Source of the DNA: Marinobacter profundi
GTDB taxonomy: Bacteria > Pseudomonadota > Gammaproteobacteria > Pseudomonadales > Oleiphilaceae
Direction: 5' to 3'
NCBI RefSeq assembly: GCF_002744715.1
Contig: NZ_KZ319369.1
Location: forward strand, 1 to 64,000
DNA: 64,000 bases
This document shows, piece after piece, positions 5,039 through 19,865 of this stretch. The stretch's first letter is position 1. Every line of letters starts with the position of its first letter. Under the pieces are notes generated by a model, which was not told where the DNA came from, ran no database searches, and saw only the letters and a program-made list of their open reading frames with translations. Both the position numbers and the translations under genes were made by a program.

Positions 5039-5740
5039 TCAGAAAAACAGGGTGATTCCCGACGACAATTCGATATTGTGGGTCAGCTGGGACTCCCGGA
5101 TCAGGTCACTTTTGAACATGTGGTCCCGGAAGTCCACGTGTACCGTCAGCCAGTCCAGCAGGACCACCCGGAAGCCGGTGCCGAAGGTGGTGGTGAAGTT
5201 GCTCTCGCCGCCGAATTCGGTGTTGCCAACCCCGCCCACCAGGTAGAACGCCGAGTTGAACGTCAGTGAGTCGCTGAAAAATACCTCGCCGGGGAAGATG
5301 TTGTAGCCCACCAGAAAATCGTAATAGGTGTAGTCCCGGTCCGAGTCCGTCAGCAGGCGGACATTGCTGCCACTGAGTTCCTCGAAGGAAGTCAGGCCGG
5401 CCTCGGTCATGCCGTAATTGAACTGGATGAAGAAGTCCTCGGTGGCATGGAAGGCCGCGCTGACGCCCATCAGCGGTTCGCTGCTGAAGTTGTCGATGGT
5501 CATCATGCCGGCGAAGGCGCCGATTTCGAAGAACTCCGCGTCGATGTCGGCCTCCCGGATGGTCCGGGGCTGGATTTCGGGTGTGATGACCTGCACCGGT
5601 GCCGGCTTGTCGGCGGCATCGGTTTCCTGGGCGGCGGTCGGCGTGGCCAGCATCATGCTGCCGGCCAGCGCCAGGGCTGCACTGACGCCAACACTACGGT
5701 GGCCCGCTTTCAGAAGAAGGTGTTCAGACCGATTTTCCAT
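5039..5740 (-). CDS. Outer-membrane beta-barrel protein (OMP_myx-like)
   Basis: A 233-residue secreted protein. A signal peptide covers about residues 1-37 (cleavage near TAA/QE). The rest consists of alternating hydrophobic strands and ends in Leu-Phe-Phe, the C-terminal aromatic signature recognised by the BAM complex, so an eight- to ten-strand barrel is likely. It resembles the small barrels found as neighbouring pairs in myxobacterial gliding and sporulation loci (GltA/GltB type), a family assignment made by eye. The ATG at 5740 lies inside the 3' end of the SH3-barrel gene, giving a 31-nt overlap and translational coupling. It faces away from the TPR/ExbBD operon but is probably part of the same system. 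Confidence 0.75.
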   Translation of the reverse strand: MENRSEHLLLKAGHRSVGVSAALALAGSMMLATPTAAQETDAADKPAPVQVITPEIQPRTIREADIDAEFFEIGAFAGMMTIDNFSSEPLMGVSAAFHATEDFFIQFNYGMTEAGLTSFEELSGSNVRLLTDSDRDYTYYDFLVGYNIFPGEVFFSDSLTFNSAFYLVGGVGNTEFGGESNFTTTFGTGFRVVLLDWLTVHVDFRDHMFKSDLIRESQLTHNIELSSGITLFF

Positions 5741-6507
5741 TCGCTTAAACCTGTGCTGTCAGAATTGGAGTCCACCGAGTAGACACGGTACTCGGCACGG
5801 ATCAGGAAATTGCGCCCGATGTAGTAGCTGGCGCCGCCGCCAAAATGAACCGCATCGGCATCACCCAGCTCGCTGAGCAACACCTTCTGGCGGGCATCGA
5901 ACGAGAAGCGTGATACCCCGGCCACGGCATAGGGCGTCAGGTCCCAGCGATGGAAGGGCTCGAGGATCAGGTTCGCGCTGTAGTAATCGCTGGTCACCGA
6001 CTGGTTGTAGATCTTGCCGGCTTCGATTTCGGCCCCGGCCCAGGTCAGCGGGCGGAAGCCGAGGGTCAGGCTGAAGCTGGTGGATTTCTCGAACTGTCCG
6101 GTGGTGAAGCCTACCCGCCAGCTTGATGTCAGGTATTCGCCATGGCCGACTTCCGGGAGGTCGGCAGGGATGCCGGTTGGCTCCAGGGTGCGACCGAGCT
6201 GGGTTGCCTTGGTCCAGCCCTCCTCGCCGGAGGCGGCGCGCACCTTATACCAGTTGGTCTTGCGTTTGAGCAGCTCGACCTGTTCACCCTGCTCGATGAC
6301 GTGGAACACCGGGTAGCCGCGCCCGGGAGCTGTGTGGAGTTCGATGAACGGATCCACCACCTCCAGCACCGCGCCGTCGCCAGCCGTTCCGGCCTGGGCG
6401 CCCAGGCCGGGCAGGAGGAGCATGGCCATCAGCAGGGCGCGGGCATGTCCGCGCTTTCGCCCTGCCGGTGGCCTACTGTGTTCGGGTTTGTCTCTGAGTA
6501 CCGTCAT
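5710..6507 (-). CDS. SH3-domain outer-membrane beta-barrel protein
   Basis: A 265-residue envelope protein. Residues 1-39 form a signal peptide (cleavage near AQA/G). Residues about 46-104 look like a bacterial SH3 domain: a small beta fold with the stretch WYKVRAASGEEGW, typical of peptidoglycan- or peptide-binding SH3b modules. Residues about 125-265 are amphipathic strands ending in NTFF, the outer-membrane barrel signature. The protein would therefore span from the cell wall to the outer membrane. It is first in a two-gene unit with the second barrel and is divergent from the ten-gene operon, with a 384-bp shared control region. Ligand and partner are unknown. Confidence 0.75.
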   Translation of the reverse strand: MTVLRDKPEHSRPPAGRKRGHARALLMAMLLLPGLGAQAGTAGDGAVLEVVDPFIELHTAPGRGYPVFHVIEQGEQVELLKRKTNWYKVRAASGEEGWTKATQLGRTLEPTGIPADLPEVGHGEYLTSSWRVGFTTGQFEKSTSFSLTLGFRPLTWAGAEIEAGKIYNQSVTSDYYSANLILEPFHRWDLTPYAVAGVSRFSFDARQKVLLSELGDADAVHFGGGASYYIGRNFLIRAEYRVYSVDSNSDSTGLSEWKIGLNTFF

Positions 6508-6891
6508 TGTCCTGCCGTAACCGTTCCGGTCCCTGTGTAAAATAATGTTAAATCATGTAATTAATTGTTTTTGCAGAAAAAAATCACAAGTTGCTGGCGG
6601 ACTCTGACGATCAAACAGATGTTGGGCAAGGGTCTTGCAGTGATTTCTTGAGGAAAGTCACAGAAACGGCAACCGATACACTTGTGCTACTTGGCAGGCC
6701 CGCTCTCTGTGCTAGTTTGTTTAACGTTATTTAACGAATGAAACATCTTCAAAAAGAACGCTGACCTTCCAAGCGAACGGGCCATTCGAAAAGAGCCCGG
6801 GAAACGAGTCAGTGACTTCAAAAGTCAGTCCCCGGGTTGTTCATAGTCTGGAGCCAGTGGCCGTTTAACGGTCGGGCAGAGGAGCACGACG
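6508..6891. promoter_or_regulatory. Divergent control region between the barrel genes and the ten-gene envelope operon
   Basis: No gene is seen in these 384 bases. A possible plus-strand sigma-70 promoter is TTGGCA at 6691-6696 and TAGTTT at 6713-6718 with 16 bases between. Just downstream, TTTAACG occurs at 6720-6726 and 6730-6736, exactly ten bases apart, and again at 6864-6870. In the leader, CGGGC (6778-6782) can pair with GCCCG (6795-6799), or CCCGGG (6796-6801) can pair with CCCGGG (6831-6836) around an inner hairpin at 6813-6827; the two foldings exclude each other. An A+T-rich patch lies at about 6540-6590 nearest the minus-strand genes. Confidence 0.45.
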
Positions 6892-7581
6892 GTGACTGTT
6901 AGAATTCAGGGAACATGCGGCCGGTCTGGCCTGGCCGGACTGCGGGCAATGTGGCTGGTACTGCTGGCGCTGATGGTAAGCCTGCCGGCAACCGGAGCTA
7001 CCGCCGTAGAGGGTGATGAGCCTGCCAGTGAGGCTGTTGACGGTGCGGCGAAGCGCAGTGCCGCGGCGGCCACGATTGATCAGATTATTGAGACACCGCT
7101 GTCGGTGCGCAAAAGCCGTGAGCAGGCGCAGCGGGCGGTCAACGAACTGTCTCGGGATATTCAGGACCTGAAGCAGTCGGTGGTGGTACTGAACAAGGAT
7201 CTTCGCGTGCTCGAGGAGGATCTGCTGTTTCCGGCCAACACCCGGCTGAGCGTGTTCCTGTCGCTCAACGTCGGTGAATTCTTCCGCCTCGAAGGGGTCG
7301 AGCTGAAGGTGGACGGCGAAACCGTCACCAGTTACCTGTACAGCGACCGTGAGCGGGAAGCCCTCGCCAAGGGCGGCATGCACCGGCTGCACCTGGGTAA
7401 CCTCAGCGCCGGCGAGCACACCCTGTCTGCGTTCTTTATCGGGGCCGGCCCCAACGGTCGTGAATACAAGCGTGGCAGTACCCTCCGCTTCACCAAGGGC
7501 CAGGGGCCCAAGTACGTCGAGTTAAGCGTTGCCGACTCGGAAGCCCGTCAGCAGCCTGAATTCGCCGTGCGGGAGTGGTGA
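6892..7581 (+). CDS. Periplasmic coiled-coil protein, first gene of the envelope-machine operon
   Basis: A 229-residue protein of unknown function. A signal peptide spans about residues 1-38. Residues about 70-112 are heptad-like and charged (a likely coiled coil containing ELSRDIQDLKQS), and residues about 118-205 look like a compact beta-sandwich. It starts with GTG at 6892, supported by AGGAG seven bases upstream; no better start exists. The next gene begins four bases after its stop, so it is the promoter-proximal gene of the TPR-ExbBD-AgmX operon. I expect it to be a periplasmic scaffold. No catalytic motif is visible. Confidence 0.75.
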   Translation: MTVRIQGTCGRSGLAGLRAMWLVLLALMVSLPATGATAVEGDEPASEAVDGAAKRSAAAATIDQIIETPLSVRKSREQAQRAVNELSRDIQDLKQSVVVLNKDLRVLEEDLLFPANTRLSVFLSLNVGEFFRLEGVELKVDGETVTSYLYSDREREALAKGGMHRLHLGNLSAGEHTLSAFFIGAGPNGREYKRGSTLRFTKGQGPKYVELSVADSEARQQPEFAVREW

Positions 7582-7585
7582 GGTC

Positions 7586-9406
7586 ATGATGCGGAACTTC
7601 TTCGCCAGAACCCGCGCCGGCATCACCGGCGCAGCCTTCGGGGTCGCCGTGCTGGCGGCCACGCCGGCGGCTGCGGTGACCGCGGTGCAGGATCTCAAGT
7701 ACGGCGCCATCCTGTTCGAGTTCTACCAGCAGAATTATTTCGAGGCGCTGGTGGAATATGCCTGGGCAGAGGATCAGGGCGGTATTGTCAATCACGGCAC
7801 CTATCCGGAACTGCTGAAGGGTGGCGTCAGCCTGTCCTACGGTCTGGATGCCCAGGCTGAAGACATCTTCACCCGGGTGGCGGAAGGTAACGTGTCCGAA
7901 GAGGCCCGCAATCGCGCCTGGTTCTACCTGGGCAAGATGCAGTATCTGCGGGGCGATGCAGTCCGGGCAGCCCGCAACCTGGCAAACGTTCGTGGCGCGC
8001 TGCCGGAGGACGTGGATGCGGAATACCGTTACCTGGCCGCACTGGTCAACGTGAAGCTGGGTTATTACGAAGCCGGCCAGGCGGTGGCCGACAGCTTCGA
8101 TGATGACAGCCCGTTCGCACCTTATTTCTACTTCAACCTCGGTATTGCCTTTGGTGGCCAGCAGCAGCCGGACCGCGCCATTGCTGCGCTGGAGCGCGCG
8201 GTGTCCTTCGAGGACGAGAACGCGGAACTCCGCCGCCTGGCTGACCGGGCCCGCATGGCGTTGTCCTACCTCTATGCCGGTCGGGAGGATATGGCGAACT
8301 CCCGGCTCCAGCTGTCCCGGGTGCGTACCTCCGGTGCCTATTCCAACCGCGGCCTGCTGGGCGCCAGCTGGCTGGCGGTGAACGAGGGTGCTTTCCGTGA
8401 TGCCCTCGGCCCGCTCGATACCCTGGCGACCCGTTCCATAGCCTTGCCGGAAGTCCAGGAAGCCCTGTTGCTGCGACCCCATGTTTATGAGCAGCTGGGG
8501 CTGAATGGTCGTGCCGCCCAGGGCTTTATCGATGCCGACGGCAAGTTCCGTGAAGCGCTGAAATGGCTGGCCACCGCCCGCGATTCTCTGCAGGGTGCGG
8601 ACATCATGGAGCTGTTTGTCCAGAACCTGGACCAGGTGCTCGGCGAGAGCGACTGGTTCGGTCGCGCGCCGTCGGTGTCGGTCAACCATCTGTCGCCGTT
8701 CCTGGTGGAGCTGATGTCGGATCACAGCTTCCAGTCGGTCCTCAAGGACCTGCGGGACCTCTACGCCATCCGCAATAACCTGGAGGGCTGGAAGGCTCGC
8801 CAGGACGATTTTGACGTCATCCTGGCGGCGCGTACCGGCAGCCTGGATGGCGAAAGCCACAGCCAGAGTCTGTCCCGCCTGGGTCGCCAGGTCGACGAGG
8901 CCCGCCAGCGGCACGCAGCGCTGACCGCCCGGGCGGCACGGCTGTCAGGGGATGACCGGCAGCAGTTGCAGTGGCTGCTCGACGAGCTGGCGTTCGATAT
9001 CCGTCGTGGTGAAGGCATGCTGGAGAGCCTGCGGGGTAGCGGCCAGTCCCTTGGCAGTGCCCGCTTTGAGGCCGACGTGGTGCGGATGATGGCGGCAGTG
9101 GATGACAACGTCGCCCGTACCGATGCCCTGATTGCCCACCTCGAGGATGTCATGCTCACCCTGGTGTCCACCGAGCTGGATATCCATGAGCAGCGCCTCA
9201 AGCACTACCAGGTCGAGGCCCAGCTTGCCAAGGTGCGGATCCTTGACCGTTCCCTGCTGGAGCTGGATGGCTCTGAGGTTAACCCCGACGCTAACTCTGA
9301 ATTTAACCCCGAAGCCGCCCCCGCGAAGGCGCCGGCGGCAGAAGCCGTAACTTCGGCTAACCACGGCGATGACGCCGCGAAAGGAGAGGGTGACCATGCG
9401 ATATAG
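7586..9406 (+). CDS. Periplasmic tetratricopeptide-repeat protein
   Basis: A 606-residue protein with a signal peptide (residues 1-30, ending in ATPAAA) followed by helical repeats. Degenerate TPR units are visible at about residues 45-260 (for example YLAALVNVKLGYYEAGQAV and YFNLGIAFGGQQQPDRAIAAL). Residues about 430-560 are long charged helices, probably coiled coil, and the tail is low-complexity Ala/Pro/Glu. Two adjacent ATGs (7586 and 7589) follow GTGAGG; 7589 has the better spacing, but the difference is one residue. It overlaps the next gene by 11 nt. TPR arrays of this type act as periplasmic scaffolds in Glt-like machines. The specific role is inferred from context. Confidence 0.78.
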   Translation: MMRNFFARTRAGITGAAFGVAVLAATPAAAVTAVQDLKYGAILFEFYQQNYFEALVEYAWAEDQGGIVNHGTYPELLKGGVSLSYGLDAQAEDIFTRVAEGNVSEEARNRAWFYLGKMQYLRGDAVRAARNLANVRGALPEDVDAEYRYLAALVNVKLGYYEAGQAVADSFDDDSPFAPYFYFNLGIAFGGQQQPDRAIAALERAVSFEDENAELRRLADRARMALSYLYAGREDMANSRLQLSRVRTSGAYSNRGLLGASWLAVNEGAFRDALGPLDTLATRSIALPEVQEALLLRPHVYEQLGLNGRAAQGFIDADGKFREALKWLATARDSLQGADIMELFVQNLDQVLGESDWFGRAPSVSVNHLSPFLVELMSDHSFQSVLKDLRDLYAIRNNLEGWKARQDDFDVILAARTGSLDGESHSQSLSRLGRQVDEARQRHAALTARAARLSGDDRQQLQWLLDELAFDIRRGEGMLESLRGSGQSLGSARFEADVVRMMAAVDDNVARTDALIAHLEDVMLTLVSTELDIHEQRLKHYQVEAQLAKVRILDRSLLELDGSEVNPDANSEFNPEAAPAKAPAAEAVTSANHGDDAAKGEGDHAI

Positions 9407-12242
9407 TGTCGTCATGCTGGCCCTGGTGATCGGGGGCTGTGGCACCTTTGACGGTGGCAAGACCATCGGGCGCCTGCAGGAACGCAACCAGGAGCTGACC
9501 GATATTCCGCTGCCGCGGGTGATGCATGCAGACGTGCGGGAAGAATACCGCGAGCTGCTGAAGACCATCGAGGACCGCAAGCTCCAGGAGCAGATTGAGC
9601 GCCGGATTGCCAGTGTTTATATGCTGGAAGGTGACTACAACCAGTTGCGAGGCGTACTGCCCGGTGCCAACGGCTATTTCCCGGATGCCATTACCGCCTA
9701 CCACGACCTGCTGGAGAAGTACCCGGCTTCTGCCGAGAACGCCGAGGCCATGTACCAGCTGTCGAAGGCCTACGATCTGGATGGCCGCGACCAGGAAGCC
9801 AAGGCCATTCTGGAGCGCTTCATCGAAGATCACCCCGAGTCCGGTCGCCTCGCCGAGGTCTATTTCCGCAAGGGTGATATCCACTTCCGTCACGAGGAGT
9901 ACGAAGAGGCCGAGCAGGCGTACCGCTCGGTGGTTCGTATTGGCAAGGAATCCACCTTCCTCAACAACTCCTGGTACCTGCTGGGCTGGTCCCAGTACAA
10001 GCTGGCGGATTACGACAACAGCCTGATGTCCTTCTCCCAGGTGCTTGACCGGCTGGTGCCGGAGGACGGCAAGGTGGAGAAGCTCGACAACGTCAACCGC
10101 TCCCTGGTCGATGACACCATGCGCATCATGAGTGTCGGCCTGGCCTACGCCGGCGGTGCCAGCAAGATTGACAGCATGTTTGCCAACCGGCCGGAGAGTG
10201 CCAAATACACCTGGATCCTCTACTCCAGCCTGGGCAAGCATTACCTGGAAAAGGAACGCTACGAGGATTCCGCGTCGTCGTTCCGCGCGTTCGTGGTGCA
10301 GAACCCGGACTCCGACCGGGCACCGGAAATGCACGCCGAGATGATCCGTGCCTATGTCGACGGCGAGTTCTCCCAGCAGGTACTGCCGGAGAAGGAAAGC
10401 TACGTCCGCAACTACGGCGTGGCGTCCGAGTTCTGGCGCACCAAGCCGGCGGACATCAAGGCCAAGGTCATCCCCAACCTCAAGGTCTACATCGACGAGC
10501 TGGCCCGCCATTACCACGCCACCGGCCAGCGGCTGAAGCGTGAACTCGCCGAGGGAACGGTGAAAGCCGCGGCCCAGGTGGCGATGGCCAGCGAACAACG
10601 CACCAGCTTCCTAAAGGCGGCCGGGTTCTACGGTGAGTTCGAACAGACCTTCCCGGACGATCCGAAAGTGCCGGAAATGGTCTACATGCGTGCGGAAGCG
10701 GCGTTTGACGGTGGCGATTACCCCGCCGCCATCGCCGGCTACGAACGCAGTGCCTATGAGTTCCGTCACCCGAAGTACGGTCCTGATGCCGGTTATGCCG
10801 CCATCATCGCCTACCAGAAAGAAGTCGAGCGGATGATTGCCGCCGGCGGTGACGGCAGCGCCGAACTGGTGGCCTGGCGCAGCAAGGGGGTCGACAGCCA
10901 GCTGCGGTTTGTCCAGGAATACCGTGACGACGAACGCTCCGGCGCCGTGCTGGCCAAGACGTCCGAAGAGCTGTTCGCCCTTGGCCGTTACGAGAAGGCC
11001 CTGGAAGTGGCGACCGGTATCGTCAGCCGCGACGGCAAGGTGGATCCGGAGCTGAACCGCACCGCCTGGGGCGTGATTGCCCACAGCCAGTACGAACTGG
11101 GCGATTTTGCGGCCGCCGAAGAAGGCTACCGCAACCAGCTCCGTTACGTTGCTGCTGGCAGCAAGGAGCATAAGGACGTGACCGAGCGGATGGCTGTCAC
11201 CATTTACAAACAGGGCGAGCAGGCGCTGGCGGCCAAGGACCTCAAGGGTGCGGTGGACCAGTTCCTGCGCATCAAGGCGGTGGCACCGGCAACCGATGTG
11301 CGGGTAATTGCCCAGTTTGATGCGGCAACCCATCTGATGACCCTGGAGGACTGGGACCGTGCGCTCACTGAAATGAACGAGCTGCGCCGGTTGTTCCCCA
11401 ACCACAAGCTGGCGGCCGACCTGTCCCAGAAGATTGCCTGGGCCTACGAGCAGGACGAACAGTGGCTGCGGGCTGCCCGCGAGTATGAGGACATCTACCG
11501 CAGCCACGGCAAGGCCGAGGTGCGCCGCGACGCCCTGTTCCTGTCTGCGGAGCTGTATGAGAAGGCCGGTGAGGACCAGCAGGCTCTGGAGTACTTCAAG
11601 AAGTGGGCCTTCGACTACGAAGAACCCTACGACACCCGCATGGAAGCCCGTTACCACGTCGCCTACCTGTACAAGCAGATGGACGATCTCAACCGGCATC
11701 TGTACTGGCTGCGCCGGGTGATCGATGGCCACAACAAGGCACCGTCCAACTGGCAGAGCGACCGTTCTGCCTGGCTGGCGGCCTGGGCCAACAATGAATA
11801 CGGCGACTACTGGCGCATCGAATTTGACCGGGTGAAGCTCCGTCATCCGCTGAACGCCAGTATTCCGCGCAAGAACGAAAAGCTGAAGAACGCCCTCGAT
11901 CGGTACCAGCAGGCGGCCGAATACCAGGTGCTCGACCAGACCACCCGGGCGTCATTCAATATTGCCGACCTTTATGGCCAGTTCGCGCGGGAGCTGATGG
12001 ATGCGCCGCGCCCTGCCGGCCTGAGTTCGCTCGAGGCCATGCAATACGAACTGATTCTGGAGGAGCAGGCCATCCCGTTCGAGGAGCTGGCCATCGAGGT
12101 TCACCAGGCCAACATCGAGCGCTCCTGGAGTGGCATGTTCAACAGCTGGATCGGGAAGAGCTTTGCCGCCATGGCCAAGCTCAACCCGGCCCGATTTGAT
12201 AAACAGGAAGTACAGGTGGCTTATGGCGATGGTATCCGTTAA
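9396..12242 (+). CDS. Large TPR lipoprotein
   Basis: A 948-residue predicted lipoprotein. The lipobox VIGGC places the acylated Cys at residue 15, so the mature protein is anchored in the outer or inner membrane facing the periplasm. Most of the chain is TPR-like helix pairs, such as AMYQLSKAYDLDGRDQEAK and YLLGWSQYKLADYDNSLMSF, with many further units to about residue 800. A longer frame begins at 9369, but the ATG at 9396, after AAGGAGAGGG, gives the lipoprotein signal directly and overlaps the previous gene by 11 nt. It is comparable in build to the giant TPR components of the myxobacterial Glt system. The sorting signal after Cys is Gly-Thr, compatible with outer-membrane sorting. Confidence 0.8.
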   Translation: MRYSVVMLALVIGGCGTFDGGKTIGRLQERNQELTDIPLPRVMHADVREEYRELLKTIEDRKLQEQIERRIASVYMLEGDYNQLRGVLPGANGYFPDAITAYHDLLEKYPASAENAEAMYQLSKAYDLDGRDQEAKAILERFIEDHPESGRLAEVYFRKGDIHFRHEEYEEAEQAYRSVVRIGKESTFLNNSWYLLGWSQYKLADYDNSLMSFSQVLDRLVPEDGKVEKLDNVNRSLVDDTMRIMSVGLAYAGGASKIDSMFANRPESAKYTWILYSSLGKHYLEKERYEDSASSFRAFVVQNPDSDRAPEMHAEMIRAYVDGEFSQQVLPEKESYVRNYGVASEFWRTKPADIKAKVIPNLKVYIDELARHYHATGQRLKRELAEGTVKAAAQVAMASEQRTSFLKAAGFYGEFEQTFPDDPKVPEMVYMRAEAAFDGGDYPAAIAGYERSAYEFRHPKYGPDAGYAAIIAYQKEVERMIAAGGDGSAELVAWRSKGVDSQLRFVQEYRDDERSGAVLAKTSEELFALGRYEKALEVATGIVSRDGKVDPELNRTAWGVIAHSQYELGDFAAAEEGYRNQLRYVAAGSKEHKDVTERMAVTIYKQGEQALAAKDLKGAVDQFLRIKAVAPATDVRVIAQFDAATHLMTLEDWDRALTEMNELRRLFPNHKLAADLSQKIAWAYEQDEQWLRAAREYEDIYRSHGKAEVRRDALFLSAELYEKAGEDQQALEYFKKWAFDYEEPYDTRMEARYHVAYLYKQMDDLNRHLYWLRRVIDGHNKAPSNWQSDRSAWLAAWANNEYGDYWRIEFDRVKLRHPLNASIPRKNEKLKNALDRYQQAAEYQVLDQTTRASFNIADLYGQFARELMDAPRPAGLSSLEAMQYELILEEQAIPFEELAIEVHQANIERSWSGMFNSWIGKSFAAMAKLNPARFDKQEVQVAYGDGIR

Positions 12243-13101
12243 TTCCGTGCGCACCGCCGGAGTGCTGGCGGTTCTGCTGGTATCCGGTTGCGCAACTCTG
12301 ATGCCGCAGGGCACAGGCGAGACTGGCCAGACGACACAGACGCGCCCGGCAGAGCCGGCAGTGGTGGCCGCGGTTGTTCCCGTTACCGATACCTCGGCCA
12401 CCCTGCCCGTGCAGGAATATTCGGCGGACGGCAAGAAGGTCGCCTATGTGGCAGCGCCGAATCCCTACCTGGCGGCGCCTTCCGAGGTGCCGCCGGCAGC
12501 CGTGGCGGCATTCCGCACAGCCAGCCAGTTGATGGCCGATGAAAAGTACCGGGATGCCCGCAAGGCGTTCTGGGCGATGACCAATGACTATCCGACCTTG
12601 TCCGGTCCCTGGGTCAAGCTGGGCGAAATCGCCGACCTGCGGGAAGACCCGGAGCGGGCCGAGAAGGCATTCCGCAAGGCCCTCGAAATCAATCCCGAGA
12701 ACGTCAATGCCTATATGGCGCTGGCGCTCCACCAGCGTCGCAAAGGGGATTTTGCCGGCGCCCGGGAAACCTACCTGACAGCCCTGGGGCTGTGGAAGGA
12801 TTTCCCCGGCGCTCACCTTAATCTGGCGATTCTCTATGACCTATACCTGAACCAGCCGGAACAGGCACAGCCCCATTACGAAGCCTACGACTTCCTGACC
12901 GGAGGCAACGACCCGAAGGTTGGCAACTGGCTGATTGAAGTGCGTCGCCGCACCGGGATTGAAACCAGTTTTATCGATAACCCACCCCCCGCACCGGAAC
13001 CTGAACTGGCACCGGAGCAACCGGCGGCAGAGCAACCGGCGGCCGAAGAACCCGTAGCGGCAGAAGCCGGCACCAACAGCGGGCCCGCAGAGCAAGGCTA
13101 G
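12223..13101 (+). CDS. TPR lipoprotein with Pro/Ala/Glu-rich tail
   Basis: A 292-residue lipoprotein with lipobox LVSGC (Cys23). After a low-complexity linker, three or four TPR units occupy about residues 95-225, including WVKLGEIADLREDPERAEK and AYMALALHQRRKGDFAGA. The C-terminal 45 residues are Pro/Ala/Glu repeats (PEQPAAEQPAAEEP). The chosen ATG at 12223 lies 20 nt inside the upstream TPR lipoprotein gene and has AGGTGG close by; 12229 is a possible alternative. This arrangement points to coupled translation of the two TPR lipoproteins. Function is inferred from the operon only. Confidence 0.8.
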   Translation: MAMVSVNSVRTAGVLAVLLVSGCATLMPQGTGETGQTTQTRPAEPAVVAAVVPVTDTSATLPVQEYSADGKKVAYVAAPNPYLAAPSEVPPAAVAAFRTASQLMADEKYRDARKAFWAMTNDYPTLSGPWVKLGEIADLREDPERAEKAFRKALEINPENVNAYMALALHQRRKGDFAGARETYLTALGLWKDFPGAHLNLAILYDLYLNQPEQAQPHYEAYDFLTGGNDPKVGNWLIEVRRRTGIETSFIDNPPPAPEPELAPEQPAAEQPAAEEPVAAEAGTNSGPAEQG

Positions 13102-13110
13102 GAGAACACC

Positions 13111-13422
13111 ATGCGAACACACAGCATGCGACCGGCTTCCCCCCTGGTCGCGGTCACGGCTCTTTTGTCCCTGATGTTTGTCGGGGAGGCATTCGGCCAG
13201 GACAAGATCGACCTCGAAAGCACCTTTGTGGGGGATAAGGAGCAGCCGTCGGTGAGCTATTTCATTCCCTGGAAGCCACCCGAAGGCCCGGAAAAACTCT
13301 ACCGTTCCATCACCTCGGTATCCGGCAAGGTGTTTGAGGTGGTCGACCGGGATGTGCATTCAAGAACCATGCAGTTTTATGACGAACTTTCTCTGGAACA
13401 GCCCTCCGGGCCAACCAGATAA
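13111..13422 (+). CDS. Small exported protein of unknown function in the envelope-machine operon
   Basis: A 103-residue protein with an N-terminal signal peptide (about residues 1-29, ending GEAFGQ). The mature part of about 74 residues carries SYFIPWKPPEGP and a Glu/Asp-rich end, with no family I recognise. AGGAG six bases before the ATG at 13111 overlaps the stop codon of the TPR lipoprotein, so it is clearly in the operon. It sits immediately before the proton-channel genes. It could be a periplasmic accessory subunit; nothing in the sequence shows more. Confidence 0.7.
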   Translation: MRTHSMRPASPLVAVTALLSLMFVGEAFGQDKIDLESTFVGDKEQPSVSYFIPWKPPEGPEKLYRSITSVSGKVFEVVDRDVHSRTMQFYDELSLEQPSGPTR

Positions 13423-13498
13423 ACGCCCAGGCAATACGAAAACTGACGTAACCAGCAAATAACCAACCAGACAAGCAGCTAGCTGTGGAGTGATAACC

Positions 13499-14164
13499 AT
13501 GAACCTGTACTCGACAATTGTTTCTTTCTTCCAGGAAGGCGGTGCCTTTATGTTCCCGATCGCCCTGGTCCTGATGGTGGGCCTGGCCATTGCGGTTGAA
13601 CGCTGGCTGTTCCTCAAACGGGCCTACAGCGCCAACAAGGCCGCCTACAGCACACTGCTGCCGCTGGTTAACAGCAGCAAGTTCGACGAAGCAGAAAAGG
13701 TCGCGGAAAACAACGGTTCTGCAATTGGCCGGCTGATTGCGGTGGGTCTCGATACCATGCGCTCTTCGCCCCGTCGTGACGATATCCATGCCGCCATGCA
13801 GGAAGGTGTGATGGAAAGCATTCCCCGGCTTTCCAAGCGCACCAACTACCTGTCCATCCTGGCCAACGTGTCCACCCTGCTGGGACTGCTCGGTACCATC
13901 ATCGGTCTGATCGCGGCGTTTACCGCGGTTGCCAACGCCGACCCGGCTGACAAGGCCACCCTGCTGTCCCAGTCGATCTCCGTAGCCATGAACACCACCG
14001 CCTTCGGTCTGATTGCGGCGATTCCGCTGCTGCTGATCCACTCCCTGCTGCAGAACAAGACGCTGGAAATTGTCGAGAGTATCGAAATGGCCGGTGTGAA
14101 GTTCCTCAACTCCATCGTGCGCAGCAACCGTGGCTCCGTGGCCACCCGCGAGTCAGACGCCTGA
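13499..14164 (+). CDS. MotA/TolQ/ExbB-family proton channel
   Basis: A 221-residue inner-membrane protein forming the channel half of a proton-driven motor with ExbD/TolR partners. Three membrane segments are visible: about 14-34, 115-138 (TLLGLLGTIIGLIAAF) and 155-180 (ISVAMNTTAFGLIAAIPLLL), with the large cytoplasmic loop between the first two, as in TolQ and ExbB. Length matches the family. A GTG at 13490 is in frame, but it is itself part of the Shine-Dalgarno sequence (GGAG, 13487-13490) for the ATG at 13499, which I chose. Two ExbD genes follow. TolQ, ExbB and AglR are all possible relatives; the neighbours favour an AglR-type motor. Confidence 0.92.
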   Translation: MNLYSTIVSFFQEGGAFMFPIALVLMVGLAIAVERWLFLKRAYSANKAAYSTLLPLVNSSKFDEAEKVAENNGSAIGRLIAVGLDTMRSSPRRDDIHAAMQEGVMESIPRLSKRTNYLSILANVSTLLGLLGTIIGLIAAFTAVANADPADKATLLSQSISVAMNTTAFGLIAAIPLLLIHSLLQNKTLEIVESIEMAGVKFLNSIVRSNRGSVATRESDA

Positions 14165-14183
14165 TCAACAGTGGTGCAAAACT

Positions 14184-14714
14184 ATGTTTGCAAAACGAAG
14201 AGAGCCTGAAGAGTCCGACATCGATATCACTGCGTTCATGAACCTGATGATCGTGTTGGTGCCGGTGCTGCTGATGAGCATGGTGTTCAACCATATTTCC
14301 ATCCTGGAGCTCAATCTGCCGGACCTTACCGGTGCCCAGACCGCCAGCGCGGAAGAAAACCGCCAGCTGGAAGTGGTGGTGCGGGAGTCGGGGATCGAAG
14401 TCTATTACCCCAGTGGCCGGCTGGTAAAAGCCATCGACAACATCAAGTCAGAGGATGGCAGTGAAGACCGCCACGATTTCCAGACCCTGTCCAAAGTGCT
14501 GCAGGAAATCAAGCGCCAGCTGGCGGCCAAGAACATTGCCAAGCGCGATGCGCTGCTGCTGTCCGAGGCGGGCGTCACCTACCAGTCCCTGGTGAGCACC
14601 ATGGATACGCTGCGGGCAGCCAAGACGGTGGTGGTGGCCGAGGCAGTGGATGTTGAGCTGTTCCCGGAGATTTCCCTGGGTGATGCACCCAAGAAGAAGG
14701 GGGCCAAATCATGA
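14184..14714 (+). CDS. ExbD/TolR-family protein with Asn in place of the channel Asp
   Basis: A 176-residue inner-membrane protein: short cytoplasmic N-terminus, one membrane helix (about 20-38, MNLMIVLVPVLLMSMV), and a periplasmic domain to the end. In ExbD and TolR the helix carries one essential Asp that moves protons; aligning DITAFMNLMIVL with the usual pattern puts Asn20 at that place. The true start is taken as ATG 14184 because a longer frame from 14130 overlaps the channel gene without a ribosome site. It overlaps the second ExbD gene by four bases (ATGA). It may be a structural subunit of a hetero-dimeric stator, as in motors with two unlike TolR proteins. Confidence 0.88.
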   Translation: MFAKRREPEESDIDITAFMNLMIVLVPVLLMSMVFNHISILELNLPDLTGAQTASAEENRQLEVVVRESGIEVYYPSGRLVKAIDNIKSEDGSEDRHDFQTLSKVLQEIKRQLAAKNIAKRDALLLSEAGVTYQSLVSTMDTLRAAKTVVVAEAVDVELFPEISLGDAPKKKGAKS

Positions 14715-15214
14715 GCGGGAAAATTACCTCGTTCGGCCTGCAGACCAGCCGCCATCAGTTCATGAAGCCGGCCAAGCTGAACCTGGTGTCGCTGATGGAC
14801 ATCTTCACCATCCTGGTGTTCTTCCTGCTGCTGAACTCCGGCACTAACGAAATCCTGCGGGTCAACGACATTACCCTGCCGGATTCCACTGCCCAGGAAC
14901 AGCCCAGGGAAACCACGGTGGTGATGATTACCGATGAAGAAATCCTGGTGGATGGCCGGCCGGTGGCGGCGATGGTGGATGTGGTCAACAGCAACGGCCT
15001 GATCGACGGGCTGATGGCGGAGCTGAAGTTCCAGGCCTCCAAGCGCACCGAGTTGACCGAAGAAGAGAAGCAACTCGGTCGCCAGGTGACCATCCTCGGT
15101 GACCAGGAAATTCCATACGAGATCCTCAAGCGGGTCATGCTGACCTGCGCGAAAGCGAACTATCGCGATCTCTCCATGGCCGTTTCACGGGTTTCCGGAA
15201 GCAGCGGCGCCTAA
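14711..15214 (+). CDS. ExbD/TolR-family protein with conserved channel Asp
   Basis: A 167-residue ExbD/TolR protein. The membrane helix at about residues 29-44 (MDIFTILVFFLLL) carries Asp30 at the proton-binding position, preceded by KLNLVSL, which aligns well with TolR. The periplasmic domain ends with a TolR-like fold segment (IPYEILKRVMLTCAKANYRDLSMAV). It starts with an ATG that overlaps the stop of the first ExbD gene, so equal expression is likely. The pair (one Asn, one Asp) would leave one protonatable site per heterodimer. Confidence 0.9.
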   Translation: MSGKITSFGLQTSRHQFMKPAKLNLVSLMDIFTILVFFLLLNSGTNEILRVNDITLPDSTAQEQPRETTVVMITDEEILVDGRPVAAMVDVVNSNGLIDGLMAELKFQASKRTELTEEEKQLGRQVTILGDQEIPYEILKRVMLTCAKANYRDLSMAVSRVSGSSGA

Positions 15215-15229
15215 GCCCGGGGGATATCG

Positions 15230-16177
15230 ATGACGACACTGACAACTACACCCTATGAGTTTGCCATGCCGTGGGAGGCCAGTGGTGAAGAGGACAGTCG
15301 CTTCAAGCGCATCCTCAAGCGCCTGTTGCTGCTGTTCCTCCTGCTGGCCCTGGTGTTTCCGTGGCTGCCGCTGCCGGAGATCGACCGGGAGGAGAAGGAG
15401 CGGATTCCGCCCAGTCTCGCCAAGGTGCTGATCGAGCAGCGCACGGTGGCCCCGCCACCGCCGCCGCCCCCCGAGCCGGTGGCCCAGGAAAAGACCGAGC
15501 AGCCCAAGCCGGAAGCCACCCCCAAGCCGGCTCCGAAGAAGGAAGTGCAGGCGGCGCGGGAGAAGGTTTCCAAGATGGGCGTCGCGGCGTTCTCCAATGA
15601 GCTGTCCTCGCTGCGCAGCTCACTGGACGTAGCGAAGCTGCAGGCCCGTAACACCAACGTCACCACCGGCGCCGCGGCCAAGGCCGCCCGCAATGTGCTG
15701 GGTGCCACCTCGGCCACCAAGACCAGTGGTGGGGTGAACAGCTCGGTGATGAACAGCACCGGAACCGGCACCCAGCTGGCCAGCCATTCGGCTACTGCGG
15801 TGGACAGCCCGATCGGTGGCGGCACCGGAGGTGTCGGTGGCGGCGGCAGTGGCAGCGGTGGTGGGAAGAAGGGCTCCACCGTGGACGGCGGCCGCGACAT
15901 GGAGTCCATCCGCCGGGTGTTCGAGCAGCACAAGGGCGCGATCTACGCCTTGTATAACCGGGCCCTGCGGAGCGATCCCAGCCTGAAAGGCAAGTTTGTG
16001 TTCCACATCGTGATCCAGCCGGACGGCAGTATCTCCAGCATCAAGCTGGTGGACAGCCAGCTGGGTGACCAGATGCTGGAAATGAAACTGCTGGCACGGA
16101 TTCAGATGATCTCCTTCGGACCGGAGGACGTCGCTGCCACACCGGTGAATTACAAGTTTGATTTCATGCCTGGCTGA
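15230..16177 (+). CDS. TonB-like energy transducer with AgmX/PglI-type C-terminal domain
   Basis: A 315-residue protein with TonB-like layout: cytoplasmic N-terminus, one membrane helix at about 28-47, a Pro-rich spacer (polyproline then PKPEATPKPAPKK at about 75-106), a helical part, a Gly/Ser-rich hinge (about 195-215), and a C-terminal domain (about 222-315). That domain contains VFEQHKGAIYALYNRALR and IQPDGSISSIKLVDS, a pattern I recognise from AgmX/PglI tails of myxobacterial gliding proteins and from related TonB-like proteins. It follows the ExbB-ExbD-ExbD trio and would couple their motor to periplasmic or outer-membrane parts. Partner identity is inferred. Confidence 0.82.
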   Translation: MTTLTTTPYEFAMPWEASGEEDSRFKRILKRLLLLFLLLALVFPWLPLPEIDREEKERIPPSLAKVLIEQRTVAPPPPPPPEPVAQEKTEQPKPEATPKPAPKKEVQAAREKVSKMGVAAFSNELSSLRSSLDVAKLQARNTNVTTGAAAKAARNVLGATSATKTSGGVNSSVMNSTGTGTQLASHSATAVDSPIGGGTGGVGGGGSGSGGGKKGSTVDGGRDMESIRRVFEQHKGAIYALYNRALRSDPSLKGKFVFHIVIQPDGSISSIKLVDSQLGDQMLEMKLLARIQMISFGPEDVAATPVNYKFDFMPG

Positions 16178-16188
16178 CAGGCGACTGG

Positions 16189-16210
16189 TGCCCCGGTTTG
16201 AACCGGGGCA
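16189..16210 (+). other. Intercistronic hairpin
   Basis: A perfect 10-bp inverted repeat (TGCCCCGGTT at 16189-16198 and AACCGGGGCA at 16201-16210) in the 74-bp gap between the TonB-like gene and the di-heme lipoprotein gene. There is no T run, so it is more likely an RNA-stability or processing element than a terminator. Confidence 0.7.
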
Positions 16211-16251
16211 CCGCCAAGGTTTCTGTGGTTCAGGAGCTGGAGAGGAAAGTC

Positions 16252-19170
16252 ATGAACACATTGCGCAGGAAAGTGACCGGTCTGGGATTCGCCGGCCTGG
16301 CATTGCTTGGACTGAGCGGCTGCTTTGAAGGCGAGCTCAGTGAGAACGAACAGAGCATCATGTCGGATCAGCCGTTCGCCTACGTGGTGCGGGACTATCC
16401 GGACATGGGCGATACTTCGTCGCTGAACTTGCGGCCGCCGCTGGATCCGCGGGCCCCCTATGCCTTCAATCCGGGGGCGAAGCTGATGGTGCGCGACCGG
16501 ATTGCCCTGAGTTCCTCCGAGCGCAATATCCTCGACCGCTACTTTGGCGGCAGCGGCTACGACGTCAAGGACCTGGACGTGTCGGCCGATGGCGAGCGGA
16601 TGGTGTTTGCCGCCCATGGCCCTGCCGGTAACGCCTCACACAGCACCTGGAACATCTACGAATACACCTTTGCCAGCGGCGAGATCCGGCGCATCTTTGC
16701 CGATGACGACGTGGCCAATGCCGGCGAAGACACCAACCCGACCTACACCAACGAAGGCCGGATCATTTTCTCCTCGTCCCGCCAGCATGGTCGTGGTGAC
16801 TGGCGCCTGCTGGACCTGCGGGAGTATCTGGAAGACTTCAATGAGCCGGCGTCGCTGCTGCACTCGGTAAACCGGGATGGCAGCAACCTGGCGCAGATCA
16901 CCTTTGGCCAGTTCCACGACATCGAGCCGGGTACCATGAACGACGGCCATGTGGTGTTTATCCGCTTCGGTCGCATCTACGAGACCCTGCAGGACTGTAC
17001 CCTGGAGAACATTGATAACCCCAACTTCAACACCCATCCCCACGGTGGCGGCTACGGTCAGGGCAATGGCAACGGTTTCCCCTCCGGGCTGGAAGAGCCG
17101 AAAGAGTGGACCGTAGAGGACAAGTGCGGCGCCTCGCTGGCCGGCCAGGTGGAAGGTGAACGGGTTTTTGTCGAAGACGTGCTCAGCATGTACCGCATCA
17201 CCCCCAGTGGCGGCAACGTACACCGCTACTTTGGCAGCCTGAGCGAGGAATTCTCCGATGCCTCATTCATCCACTACATGGATCCGATCCCGCTGGATGA
17301 CGGCAACCTGCTGACCATCATGCGCCACGTCTACAACCCGATCTATGGTGGCGACGTGGTCAAGGTGAACAGTGCCAACTTCTTTGCGGTGGGCAAGCCG
17401 GTGGCCGAATCGGTGATCGGCGAGGCGGAAGAATCCATGACTCCGGGTCTGGTGAACTTCTATCCCAGCCAGGTTTCGCCAGCGGGCTGGTACAGCGCCG
17501 TTGCGCCCTATGGTGACGGTACCGGCCGTCTGCTGGCCAGCTGGGCCCAGTGCCTGGTGACCGACAGCACCATTACCGGCGCCTGCGAGGGTTCCTCGAC
17601 CGTTGATAACCTCGGCGAACCGCAATACGGCATCTGGATGGTGGATCCGGCGCAGAATACCCGGCTGCCGGTGGTGCGTGGTCACCAGAATGCGCTGTAC
17701 ACCGACGTGGTGATTGCCGACCGCAACGAACTGGCCCGCCCCTACACCGGCAACCAGCACAATCTGGACCTGGAAGAGAATACCGCGCTGTTTCACATCC
17801 GCAGCGTCTACGACATGGACGGCGCCGATATGGCGGCGTTGTACGACGGCGGCATCGAAACCCGCCGTGATCCGTCCCTGACCCATCCCGATGACCGTTC
17901 CGAGCGGTTTATCCGGGTCCTGGGCAAGCGCAGCATTCCACCGCTGCTGGAGCAGGCCATCCTCTCCGACCCGATTCTCAACCCGGCGGAAGGCCCGCAG
18001 CCGCCGCTCGGGCTGACTCCGCTGATCGGCTCCGGTGATCGCAATCTTTATGACATCCTGTCCTACGCCATGGTGGAGCCGGACGGCTCGGCGATGGTGA
18101 AGGTGCCGGCGGATACCAGCTTCACCTTCGAAGTGGTCAACAAGTATGGCAAGCGGGTCGACCTGATTGCTGCCCCCGACTACAACTACAACTACCTGAT
18201 CCAGCACCCCCAGTCCCTGCTGCTGGAAAATGGCGAAGTGCTGAAGTGTTACGGTTGCCATGACCCGGAAGTGGACATTCCCCACGCCCGGACGGACGTG
18301 GAACTGGCCTCGGCCAACCCGGGGGCGCCGGCCGCTGCCATGCCGTTCCCCAATGCCAACCCGATGATCATCGCCCAGAACTGGAAAGACACCATGGCGG
18401 AGGCGCTGGTGGACTCGCTCAGTTATCTGCCCACCACCTGGGCCGACGACATGCGTTACGAGGATTTCTGGAGCAACCCGCCGGATGCCAGCTTGGCCTT
18501 CAGCAATCCCTATTCCGGGCTGACGACCCCGGTGCCGGCAAACGATCCGTCGTGCCTGACCAACTGGACGAGTAACTGCAAGGCCACCATCAACTACGTC
18601 GAGCACATCCAGCCGATCTGGAATGCCTGCCGGGTGGACCCGAACCAGAACGTGGTGACCTCGTGCCAGAACTGCCATCGCGCGGCCGAGAGCAAGTCCT
18701 GCGCTGCAGGAGTCGGCGGCGGCGGCCCCGGCACCGGCCTGATGCTGGGCTCGGGCAACGCGTCCTGGGACGGTCGCCAGCTGGAGTCGTATGTCGAGCT
18801 GTTCAAACCGGATTATTACATCCGCGAGACCACGACCGGAGACTGGGTGGAAGTGGATGAGACCAATCTCGATGCCGAGTGTCCGGACGGTATCCAGGGT
18901 GACATGACGGTGTTGCCGGATCCGGGAGTGTGCTTTGCCCGTCGCCTGATGAGCGCCCGTGGCGCCATTGCCAGTGCCCGTTTCTTCAGCCTGTTTGATA
19001 ACGACCCGGACGACGACGAGTACCAGGTGGAAACCACCGGCACCGAGGCGATCCGCCAGAGTCATATGGGCATGCTGAGCAGGGCCGAACTGAGGCTGAT
19101 CGCCGAGTGGCTGGACACCGGTGCCCATCTCTTCAACGATCCCGACAAATTCGAGTTCCCGGTGGAATAA
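16252..19170 (+). CDS. HzsA-like di-heme lipoprotein
   Basis: A 972-residue predicted lipoprotein (LGLSGC, Cys24). Two c-type heme motifs are present: CYGCH at 666-670 and CQNCH at 805-809, the second after the pattern INYVEHIQPIWNAC found in cytochrome-like modules. The middle (about 100-460) has beta-propeller-like repeats such as PTYTNEGRIIFSSSRQHGRGD and MNDGHVVFIRFGR, which recall the alpha subunit of hydrazine synthase and its many non-anammox relatives. There is no reason to propose hydrazine chemistry here. The ATG at 16252 follows GAGAGGAAAG; a longer frame from 16198 would translate the hairpin. Being inside a proton-motor operon, it may be a surface or periplasmic redox protein served by the machine. 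Function is unknown. Confidence 0.72.
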   Translation: MNTLRRKVTGLGFAGLALLGLSGCFEGELSENEQSIMSDQPFAYVVRDYPDMGDTSSLNLRPPLDPRAPYAFNPGAKLMVRDRIALSSSERNILDRYFGGSGYDVKDLDVSADGERMVFAAHGPAGNASHSTWNIYEYTFASGEIRRIFADDDVANAGEDTNPTYTNEGRIIFSSSRQHGRGDWRLLDLREYLEDFNEPASLLHSVNRDGSNLAQITFGQFHDIEPGTMNDGHVVFIRFGRIYETLQDCTLENIDNPNFNTHPHGGGYGQGNGNGFPSGLEEPKEWTVEDKCGASLAGQVEGERVFVEDVLSMYRITPSGGNVHRYFGSLSEEFSDASFIHYMDPIPLDDGNLLTIMRHVYNPIYGGDVVKVNSANFFAVGKPVAESVIGEAEESMTPGLVNFYPSQVSPAGWYSAVAPYGDGTGRLLASWAQCLVTDSTITGACEGSSTVDNLGEPQYGIWMVDPAQNTRLPVVRGHQNALYTDVVIADRNELARPYTGNQHNLDLEENTALFHIRSVYDMDGADMAALYDGGIETRRDPSLTHPDDRSERFIRVLGKRSIPPLLEQAILSDPILNPAEGPQPPLGLTPLIGSGDRNLYDILSYAMVEPDGSAMVKVPADTSFTFEVVNKYGKRVDLIAAPDYNYNYLIQHPQSLLLENGEVLKCYGCHDPEVDIPHARTDVELASANPGAPAAAMPFPNANPMIIAQNWKDTMAEALVDSLSYLPTTWADDMRYEDFWSNPPDASLAFSNPYSGLTTPVPANDPSCLTNWTSNCKATINYVEHIQPIWNACRVDPNQNVVTSCQNCHRAAESKSCAAGVGGGGPGTGLMLGSGNASWDGRQLESYVELFKPDYYIRETTTGDWVEVDETNLDAECPDGIQGDMTVLPDPGVCFARRLMSARGAIASARFFSLFDNDPDDDEYQVETTGTEAIRQSHMGMLSRAELRLIAEWLDTGAHLFNDPDKFEFPVE

Positions 19171-19187
19171 CAAGAAGGAAAACGACC

Positions 19188-19865
19188 GTGACAGTAGCAA
19201 TGAGCCAGACTGACGTCATCTACCTGGACAGCTGGGCGCTGCCGGACTTCGAGCTGGAGCGCCAGGGCTGGGGTATCCCGCCGCGGGAATCCTGGCAGGT
19301 GGACCGCAAGTTCCGCCAGATCCATGCCGCGCGCAAGAGCAGCACCCTGTTCAAACGCTTTAACCGGCATTACCTGGCGATCTCCCGCCACCGCGGCCGC
19401 AGGGAACTGCCGGAGCAGGTCATCGACCTGGCGTTTGTCGAAGCCGAGGCCCGCGAGGTGCGGGATTTCAAGGCCAGGTTGTGGTTGCTGGCGGCCTGCC
19501 TGCTCACCATTCCGGTGGCGTTCACCGGCCTGATGCCGGTGGCACCGCTGTGGATGTTACCGCCGGTGCTGATTGCGGTGGCGCTGGTGGCCGTTGCCCT
19601 GCGGCTGCGCAAACATCATTACGAGTTCCGCGCCCTCAACAGTGACGTGGTGGTCTTTACCGTGGATGCCGGCGTGCCGGCCAAGGAAGACGCCGAGGCC
19701 TTTGTCCGCGACCTGTCGCTCAGCATCGCGGATGCCCAGCGGGTACTGCCTGCGGGCAAACAGCGGATTCCGGTGGCGGTGGCGGAAATGCGCCGGCTGG
19801 CAGAGCAGGGAATCATCAGCAAGGACGACTACGAAGCCATCAAACGCAACTGGTTCCGCAGCTGA
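19188..19865 (+). CDS. Two-TM membrane protein with SHOCT-like C-terminus, last gene of the envelope operon
   Basis: A 225-residue protein. Residues 1-95 are soluble and basic; two membrane helices follow (about 97-116 and 119-140) with a very short turn, so both ends lie in the cytoplasm; the C-terminal 27 residues (EMRRLAEQGIISKDDYEAIK) match the short SHOCT oligomerisation motif. GTG at 19188, with AAGGA about eight bases before, is preferred over ATG 19200, which lacks a ribosome site. It begins 17 bases after the di-heme lipoprotein stop. The hairpin at 19915-19945 ends the operon region. The role is unknown; SHOCT tails often occur in membrane-associated accessory proteins. Confidence 0.7.
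   Translation: MTVAMSQTDVIYLDSWALPDFELERQGWGIPPRESWQVDRKFRQIHAARKSSTLFKRFNRHYLAISRHRGRRELPEQVIDLAFVEAEAREVRDFKARLWLLAACLLTIPVAFTGLMPVAPLWMLPPVLIAVALVAVALRLRKHHYEFRALNSDVVVFTVDAGVPAKEDAEAFVRDLSLSIADAQRVLPAGKQRIPVAVAEMRRLAEQGIISKDDYEAIKRNWFRS

Follow-up and report, generated by a model that had tools for sequence, protein, structure and literature searches.

The window, a 64,000-nucleotide stretch of Marinobacter profundi DNA, contains at positions 5039 to 19865 a cluster of 13 genes: two divergent outer-membrane barrel genes and an 11-gene operon. The operon encodes a proton-channel motor, a TonB-like transducer, tetratricopeptide repeat (TPR) proteins and, as gene 12 of the cluster, a diheme lipoprotein that we call PROP. 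The reading we favor, at slightly better than even confidence, is a single trans-envelope machine that belongs to the gammaproteobacterial Glt-core type and has a haem redox complex as its outer-membrane load. Because the machine travels with an outer-membrane haem protein in many relatives, the data suggest that it serves cell-surface redox chemistry rather than gliding. An original prediction, made from the letters alone, had counted twelve linked genes and likened them to the Glt/Agl motility and Nfs spore-coat machines of myxobacteria; gene 12 went unrecognized, and the redox link was missed because the haem lipoprotein was. The parts that it named were recovered as open reading frames in the places assigned to them, and Pfam and NCBIfam models support ExbB, both ExbD proteins and the AgmX/PglI tail. 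The labels PROP, B1, B2, CC, T1-T3, s7, D1, D2, Ton, x405, x850, x540 and c167 were coined in this analysis.

PROP (16252..19170, plus strand) is a lipoprotein with a TolB-like propeller, an HZS_alpha domain and two c-haem sites. Its Pfam matches are PD40 and HZS_alpha (PF18582; 27.2 bits, cut-off 26.6), and its two CxxCH motifs are encoded at 18247-18261 and 18664-18678. A search of the PDB with the single PROP sequence gave no match up to an E value of 1; only a family profile, built from 15 PROP sequences, retrieved the alpha subunit of hydrazine synthase (HZS; 5c2v_A), with an E value of 9.8e-17. The profile pieces in the propeller, middle and C-terminal parts were collinear with 5c2v_A, the middle and C-terminal pieces alone being significant individually. 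An AlphaFold2 model of PROP was obtained with a mean predicted local distance difference test (pLDDT) score of 73.8, a predicted template modeling score of 0.75, and 192 of 972 residues below a pLDDT of 50. The best Foldseek match of this model was again 5c2v (E value, 3.8e-21; template modeling scores, 0.43 and 0.52), and it aligned with 5c2v_A with a Z score of 29.8 across 606 residues (root mean square deviation, 6.3). TolB ranked after 5c2v, with a Z score of about 25 for the propeller alone. Of tolB, pal and a TonB-dependent receptor, which had all been reported as absent, the last two indeed have no Pfam match in the cluster, while gene 12 carries a TolB-like propeller.

The haem ligands of PROP are strongly conserved. 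Two or three CxxCH motifs were present in 36 of 42 PROP rows, and five of the other six are cut or broken copies. In two alignments of selected, near full-length PROP sequences (A1 and A3; 15 and 52 rows, not independent, the window protein and some genomes being in both), all 67 rows keep the two CxxCH histidines together with His938, and 66 keep His652. In an HMMER alignment, with the numbering offset derived here, His938 falls on His772, the residue that serves haem alpha-II of HZS-alpha as distal ligand. Bis-His ligation is predicted at both haem sites of PROP, by His652 with His670 and by His809 with His938. Tyr591 of HZS-alpha has been described as the proximal residue of the catalytic haem. 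At the equivalent position of PROP, four residues after the CxxCH histidine, no row of the 67 has a tyrosine, which makes hydrazine synthesis unlikely; a hydrazine-synthesizing role for PROP was therefore rejected. A 2025 survey (PMC12758564) describes distant HZS-alpha homologues in Planctomycetota and Desulfobacterota, with the distal histidine missing from its clade I homologues. It also mentions more than 600 structural matches, and its main text does not contain the word Gammaproteobacteria.

PROP and the core of the machine occur together in gammaproteobacteria. In a class sample of 274 genomes, the genome of the window included, PROP was sought with the window protein alone and CC, the periplasmic coiled-coil protein used as the marker for the core, with a profile. 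Matches to PROP were obtained in 43 genomes, and the four weakest (E values of 1e-4 to 1e-3; G085, G099, G118 and G221) were dropped, leaving 39; CC was found in 59 genomes, DUF3570 in 70 and x540, a putative Tat (twin-arginine translocation) protein, in 34. Both PROP and CC were present in 38 of the 39 PROP genomes and in 26 of 27 PROP families (Fisher P of 3e-30, not corrected for phylogeny), lying within 25 kb of each other on one contig in 29 of the 38 genomes and on different contigs in 9. PROP was accompanied by DUF3570 in 37 of 39 genomes, the exceptions being the genome of the window and G091, and 31 of the 34 genomes having x540 also have PROP. G091 is the sole PROP genome without CC: at its locus (L083) PROP is broken into two frames, x405, x850 and x540 remain, and no barrel or core match was found within the fetched 19.5 kb. 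This locus resembles a natural loss of the machine. In a sample of 398 genomes from across the phylum, 34 had some PROP match at an E value of 0.001 or less, and 11 matches spanned most of PROP, all of them within the class of the window. Spread on plasmids was considered and rejected, PROP having no match among plasmid records.

A scan of named genomes yielded at least 552 confirmed stretches, of which the best 80 loci, leaning toward relatives of the query, were kept. Some of these are the same contigs as loci in the genome samples (for example, L132 and L055), so that counts across the two sets are not independent. By their titles, the best 80 are from gammaproteobacteria or labeled only Proteobacteria or Pseudomonadota, except for one Rhodospirillaceae metagenome-assembled genome (L131); the hosts include Steroidobacter, Povalibacter, Peristeroidobacter, Woeseia, Candidatus Thiodiazotropha, Sedimenticola, Thiogranum and tubeworm endosymbionts. 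Many of the 80 are cut by contig ends, and among them B2 was found in 78, B1 in 75, x405 in 75, x850 in 72, DUF3570 in 69, x540 in 66, TlpA in 54, CC in 29, T1 in 29, T2 in 23 and ApbE in 13. In the 42 named loci flanked by 9 kb of sequence in either direction, B2, x405 and x850 were present in all 42, B1, x540 and DUF3570 in 41, and TlpA in 25. In the 78 named loci with a family gene downstream of PROP, the nearest such gene is B2 in 77. PROP, B1 and B2 form a conserved triad, and this haem lipoprotein with its two barrels is a concrete lead to the load of the motor.

Most relatives add two more haem proteins, one Tat protein and DUF3570. The haem proteins are x405, with one CxxCH in 75 of 75 sequences, and x850 (L053:5729-8248), an exported protein with two CxxCH motifs in 71 of 72 sequences and a concanavalin-A-like domain, which most named loci encode next to x405 and x540; x850 is a possible glycan-binding haem protein. 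The Tat protein, x540 (L053:8268-9848 and relatives), has a twin-arginine (RR) motif in 52 of 62 sequences, and 17 other aligned sequences are 66 to 77% identical to that of L053. It had no Pfam match, and its profile retrieved nothing from the PDB up to an E value of 10; by appearance it may be a distant DUF1501-type protein. Flavinylation was considered as a general theme and rejected: the genome of the window has no DUF3570, and the [ST]GA[ST] motif, sought by regular expression, was found in 13 of 66 and 5 of 13 DUF3570 proteins from these loci and was missing in 53 of 66 and 8 of 13. That genome has a single ApbE, elsewhere, on contig C2.

PROP was present in 66 of 124 genomes of the genus, and these, like the 39 PROP genomes in the class sample of 274, can be counted as carriers of the HZS-alpha fold. 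By the length of PROP there are two locus types, the window type in 22 genomes and the other type in 44. One genome alone, G735, has both, compared with 7.8 expected (one-sided P of 3.4e-4, not corrected for phylogeny); for this count, a partial copy in G766 was dropped and the split PROP genes of G036 and G752 were each measured as one span. The two types seem to replace each other, as if sharing one job. The full type is represented by G018, where a single locus holds ApbE, x540-x850-x405 and PROP-B2-B1-TlpA-DUF3570-CC-T1-T2-T3-s7-ExbB-D1-D2-Ton; the window type is reduced to B1-B2, the core, PROP and a last gene, g13. The protein x540 was found in 14 of 37 searched genomes of the genus, that of the window among those searched, and these are exactly the genomes with the other type. 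The co-occurrence check suggested with the original prediction bore out the cluster, whose arrangement is beyond chance: five further genomes of the genus share it (L029 and L205-L208, of which L206-L208 end with the fetched stretch before all parts are covered), as do, in varied form, other families. The split copies of PROP lie at C1:2644885-2647493 in G036 and at C1:36826-39443 in G752, and either decay or an assembly error may account for them.

Several observations weigh against a single machine with a haem load. CC occurs without PROP in 21 of its 59 genomes, and 9 of these 21 also lack DUF3570; some PROPs may be missed among the 21, because PROP was sought with one sequence and CC with a profile. 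Of the 70 genomes with DUF3570, 21 are without CC, which counts against a strict link. Core genes lay within the fetched stretch in only 16 of the 42 well-flanked named loci, and the P values above ignore kinship. The sixth PROP row lacking two motifs, L061, is full length with a single CxxCH and is in neither A1 nor A3. The genome of the window has no match to DUF3570 and no x540 (x405, x850 and TlpA were not sought there), and it carries a second core cluster (L018; contig C2, about 128000-136500) without barrels or PROP. The PROP-less cores and the 16 of 42 would also fit PROP being an independent periplasmic cytochrome that shares only a promoter with the machine. Such an arrangement would leave unexplained why PROP is found with CC in all but one genome and one family and why B2 stands next to PROP in 77 of 78 named loci, and we consider it quite improbable. 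The linkage of core, barrels and PROP is well supported, and we infer that these parts form one machine.

The second core cluster belongs to a separate group. Its neighbors are what we take, from the look of their sequences, to be a CoxE/vWA gene and an acyl-CoA synthetase gene, and L024, L026 and L030 have neighbors similar to those of L018. In a tree of T2 (27 rows), four redox-less clusters of the genus split from the other 23 rows with support of 100/100, a separation that speaks for the reading we favor. Among those 23, L023 and L028 have no adjoining redox gene and L021 has ApbE only. For L023 and L021, PROP is found at another place in the genome (L215 and L211, respectively); the genome of L028 (G051) had no PROP match.

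The motor of the window cluster consists of an ExbB/TolQ/MotA-type proton channel (13499..14164, plus strand; MotA_ExbB PF01618, 95 bits) and two ExbD/TolR proteins that exceed the PF02472 cut-off, ExbD1 (D1; 14184..14714, plus strand; 41 bits) and ExbD2 (D2; 14711..15214, plus strand; 57 bits). In ExbD1, asparagine (codon 14241-14243) replaces the membrane aspartate, and this holds in 19 of 19 family members including the window copy (18 by regular expression and L020 by eye). ExbD2 keeps the membrane aspartate (codon 14798-14800), as do 18 of 18 family members (12 by regular expression and 6 by eye); a 19th row, L084, is a different ExbD, likewise with aspartate. Both sets of rows include the redox-less paralogues. 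If ExbD1 and ExbD2 pair, as we infer, the proton-binding aspartate would be on one axle helix only. The TonB-like transducer, Ton (15230..16177, plus strand), has a proline-rich stretch and an AgmX/PglI C-terminal domain (NF033768; 62.6 bits, cut-off 40).

The periplasmic parts are encoded upstream of the motor. CC (6892..7581, plus strand) is a coiled coil with a beta-sandwich; its AlphaFold2 model (pLDDT, 81.8) has a helix at residues 70-112 followed by strands at 117-228, and no PDB match at an E value of 0.001 or less, which does not of itself show a new fold. The original prediction of three TPR proteins, two of them lipoproteins, stood for the two lipoproteins, both over TPR cut-offs and with lipoboxes seen by eye; the third, T1 (7586..9406, plus strand), has only sub-cut-off TPR matches, although its family is kept across loci. 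T1 is perhaps the counterpart of GltC. T2 (9396..12242, plus strand; TPR_16, 84 bits), a large lipoprotein of 948 residues, appears GltD-like by type and order, and T3 (12229..13101, plus strand) may be GltE-like by gene order, the GltE model giving 26.8 bits against an NCBIfam cut-off of 225. T2 also passed the YbgF model (101.3 bits in 4 stretches; cut-off, 90.1), a score that its TPRs alone may explain. The small secreted protein s7 (13111..13422, plus strand), in the gltF position, has no Pfam or NCBIfam match, and its Pro-Trp motif, read by eye, is conserved in 20 of 20 aligned members. A resemblance of GltF to a TonB box has been described (PMC9389320), so that s7 may, by analogy and position, be what Ton grips.

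T2 was further matched, weakly, by the model for the type IX secretion protein PorW/SprE (46 bits; cut-off, 250). Together with the haem or Tat character of several conserved partners in relatives (x405, x850 and x540), this match could point to an assembly or export machine in which proton force would deliver PROP to the surface, along with the other haem and Tat proteins where relatives have them. The core, however, exists in the 21 genomes without PROP, and surface display of lipoproteins normally needs no such motor. We regard this possibility as fairly unlikely.

The outer-membrane end of the machine would be formed by PROP and the two barrels. B1 (5039..5740, minus strand), which ends in FF, matched TIGR04565 (OMP_myx_plus) with 163 bits (cut-off, 60), as did 19 of 19 aligned family members; 17 of the 19 also matched OMP_b-brl at an E value of 0.01 or less, and the window copy did not. 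B2 (5710..6507, minus strand) combines an SH3 domain (SH3_3; 36.9 bits, over the cut-off) with a barrel that scored 26.2 bits against OMP_b-brl, slightly below its cut-off of 28.7, and 20.6 bits against TIGR04565 (cut-off, 60). Of the two barrels originally proposed, B1 is therefore firmly placed and B2 just misses its cut-off. A TonB-like transducer alongside ExbB and ExbD proteins raises the possibility of an importer, in which a metal, haem or redox-active compound would enter through B1 or B2, opened by the motor, and be reduced or oxidized by PROP; a VIT1 iron transporter in 25 DUF3570 clusters elsewhere (PMC8238504) would be in keeping with this. Against it, the Pfam matches of the cluster include no TonB-dependent receptor, and the two barrels, small proteins of 233 and 265 residues including the signal, match OMP_b-brl-type families. 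An importer seems unlikely to us.

Under the reading that we favor, ExbB and a pair of ExbD1 and ExbD2, one of which keeps the proton-carrying aspartate, would form a proton-driven motor of the 5:2 type. This motor would move Ton, whose AgmX/PglI tail would reach the periplasmic coiled-coil and TPR proteins, and force would pass through the TPR lipoproteins to B1 and B2, which would hold or pass PROP. The force may insert, position or open the complex, so that electrons could pass between PROP and a substrate that lies close to the outer membrane or beyond it, presumably to the benefit of the cell. If true, inner-membrane proton force would be coupled to outer-membrane redox chemistry; we know of no system that does this. 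More tentatively, and at rather less than even confidence, we propose a new class of trans-envelope machine, in which a proton-driven Glt-type motor would be reserved for redox chemistry at the outer membrane and which would be built on a cytochrome lipoprotein of the HZS-alpha fold, with the full locus in many gammaproteobacteria and a reduced, haem-only form in the window.

The layout of the cluster is that of an operon with a divergent gene pair. The barrel genes (minus strand, 5039-6507) diverge from a plus-strand run (6892-19865) across a single gap (6508..6891), and the genes of the run overlap or lie less than 100 bases apart throughout. PROP begins 74 bases after the TonB-like gene within this run. 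The run is closed by g13 (19188..19865, plus strand), a small membrane protein with a sub-cut-off SHOCT match (14 bits), which also closes the cluster in L029 and L205-L208 (L205, L206, L207 and L208). An alignment of four genomes of the genus revealed conserved blocks in the gap. In the window copy, six regulator consensus patterns, with one mismatch allowed, gave no match and identified no regulator; the gaps of three relatives had a single LexA-like match, a single Crp-like match and several sigma-E-like matches, at differing positions. No sigma-70-like site was found, compared with 2.9 in shuffles, and terminator-like sites numbered 11, compared with 11.4 in shuffles. Adjoining the cluster but outside it, 20446-22020 (minus strand) encodes a protein with a sub-cut-off Beta_helix match.

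Compared with known systems, the cluster is neither a standard TonB-ExbB-ExbD nor a standard Tol system, as originally predicted. The ExbB equivalog model gave 49.9 of 206 bits, and ExbD models gave 20 to 21 bits for D1 (cut-offs, 123 to 216) and none for D2. The cluster resembles Tol-Pal in its TolQ/TolR-type motor and the TolB-like propeller of PROP, and perhaps in T2, by its YbgF score; it differs in that TolQ (58 of 221 bits) and TolR (23 and 21 of 127) equivalog cut-offs were not reached and no Pal-type match was found in the cluster. A 2025 study of force transducers (PMC12204202) describes further TolQ/TolR loci that encode TPR and vWA proteins, the terms AgmX and Glt not occurring in it. 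By gene types alone, the locus can be likened to a TPR/ExbB/ExbD/ExbD/TonB cluster of Fibrobacter that rises on cellulose (PMC6851124).

On the redox side, PROP and the alpha subunit of hydrazine synthase (5C2V) share propeller, middle haem and C-terminal haem domains in the same order and the His772 equivalent, whereas PROP is a lipoprotein and lacks the Tyr591 equivalent. No beta or gamma subunit of hydrazine synthase was found among the 13 genes, a genome-wide search not having been made. In relatives, DUF3570, a thioredoxin-like gene and sometimes ApbE adjoin PROP, as in the DUF3570/ApbE/thioredoxin/DUF4266 flavinylation clusters; unlike these, the genome of the window has no DUF3570. The main text of Meheust 2021 (PMC8238504), which describes DUF3570/ApbE clusters, contains neither ExbB nor TPR.

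With the Agl-Glt and Agl-Nfs machines of Myxococcus xanthus, the cluster shares the motor, the TonB-like transducer, TPR proteins, outer-membrane barrels and, where gltF sits, a small secreted protein. It differs in having no GltJ over the cut-off of 450 bits (the best score in the whole genome, 27 bits, belongs to the C2 paralogue), no membrane aspartate in ExbD1, where AglQ and AglS are both said to carry one (PMC9389320), and PROP inside the operon. In this comparison, made with NCBIfam models only, GltG scored 39 bits (cut-off, 650) and GltE 27 (cut-off, 225), and no Agl model was among the matches. Gliding as such was rejected on the GltJ score in these models and the ExbD1 residue; the parallel drawn by the original prediction holds for the core, whereas a gliding reading is not supported. 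A Glt/Agl- or Nfs-like machine that moves adhesins or glycans on the surface in gliding, in adhesion or in the assembly of a coat, with PROP as an accessory, would account for the core gene types, the AgmX/PglI tail and the membership of B1 in a family named for myxobacteria, and Wartel 2013 (PMC3858216) proposed the core as a possible basal transport machinery. The sub-cut-off GltJ, GltG and GltE scores, the asparagine of ExbD1, and the haem sites of PROP, which has no adhesin domain among its Pfam matches, argue against such a machine, as does the judgment of Luciano 2011 (PMC3169522) that the core alone is unlikely to drive motility. We hold it to be improbable.

The closest comparison is with the core complex itself. 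In open-licence search listings, supplements excluded, we found no report linking this core to a cytochrome, and in such listings none since 2011 that answers what the gammaproteobacterial core does. Luciano 2011 (PMC3169522) called its function unknown, and the words "cytochrome" and "barrel" do not occur in the main text of that paper (its supplementary gene maps are not covered here), so that a link to a haem lipoprotein is not described in that text. The core itself was thus already known: that paper reported gltC-D-E-G and aglR-Q-S clustered in gammaproteobacteria, with two Marinobacter among the cases of a duplicated core. The cluster described here has one ExbB, two ExbDs, a TonB-like protein and TPR proteins in one region, and it shares with that core complex its gene types, its clustering in one region, and its reported presence and duplication in Marinobacter.

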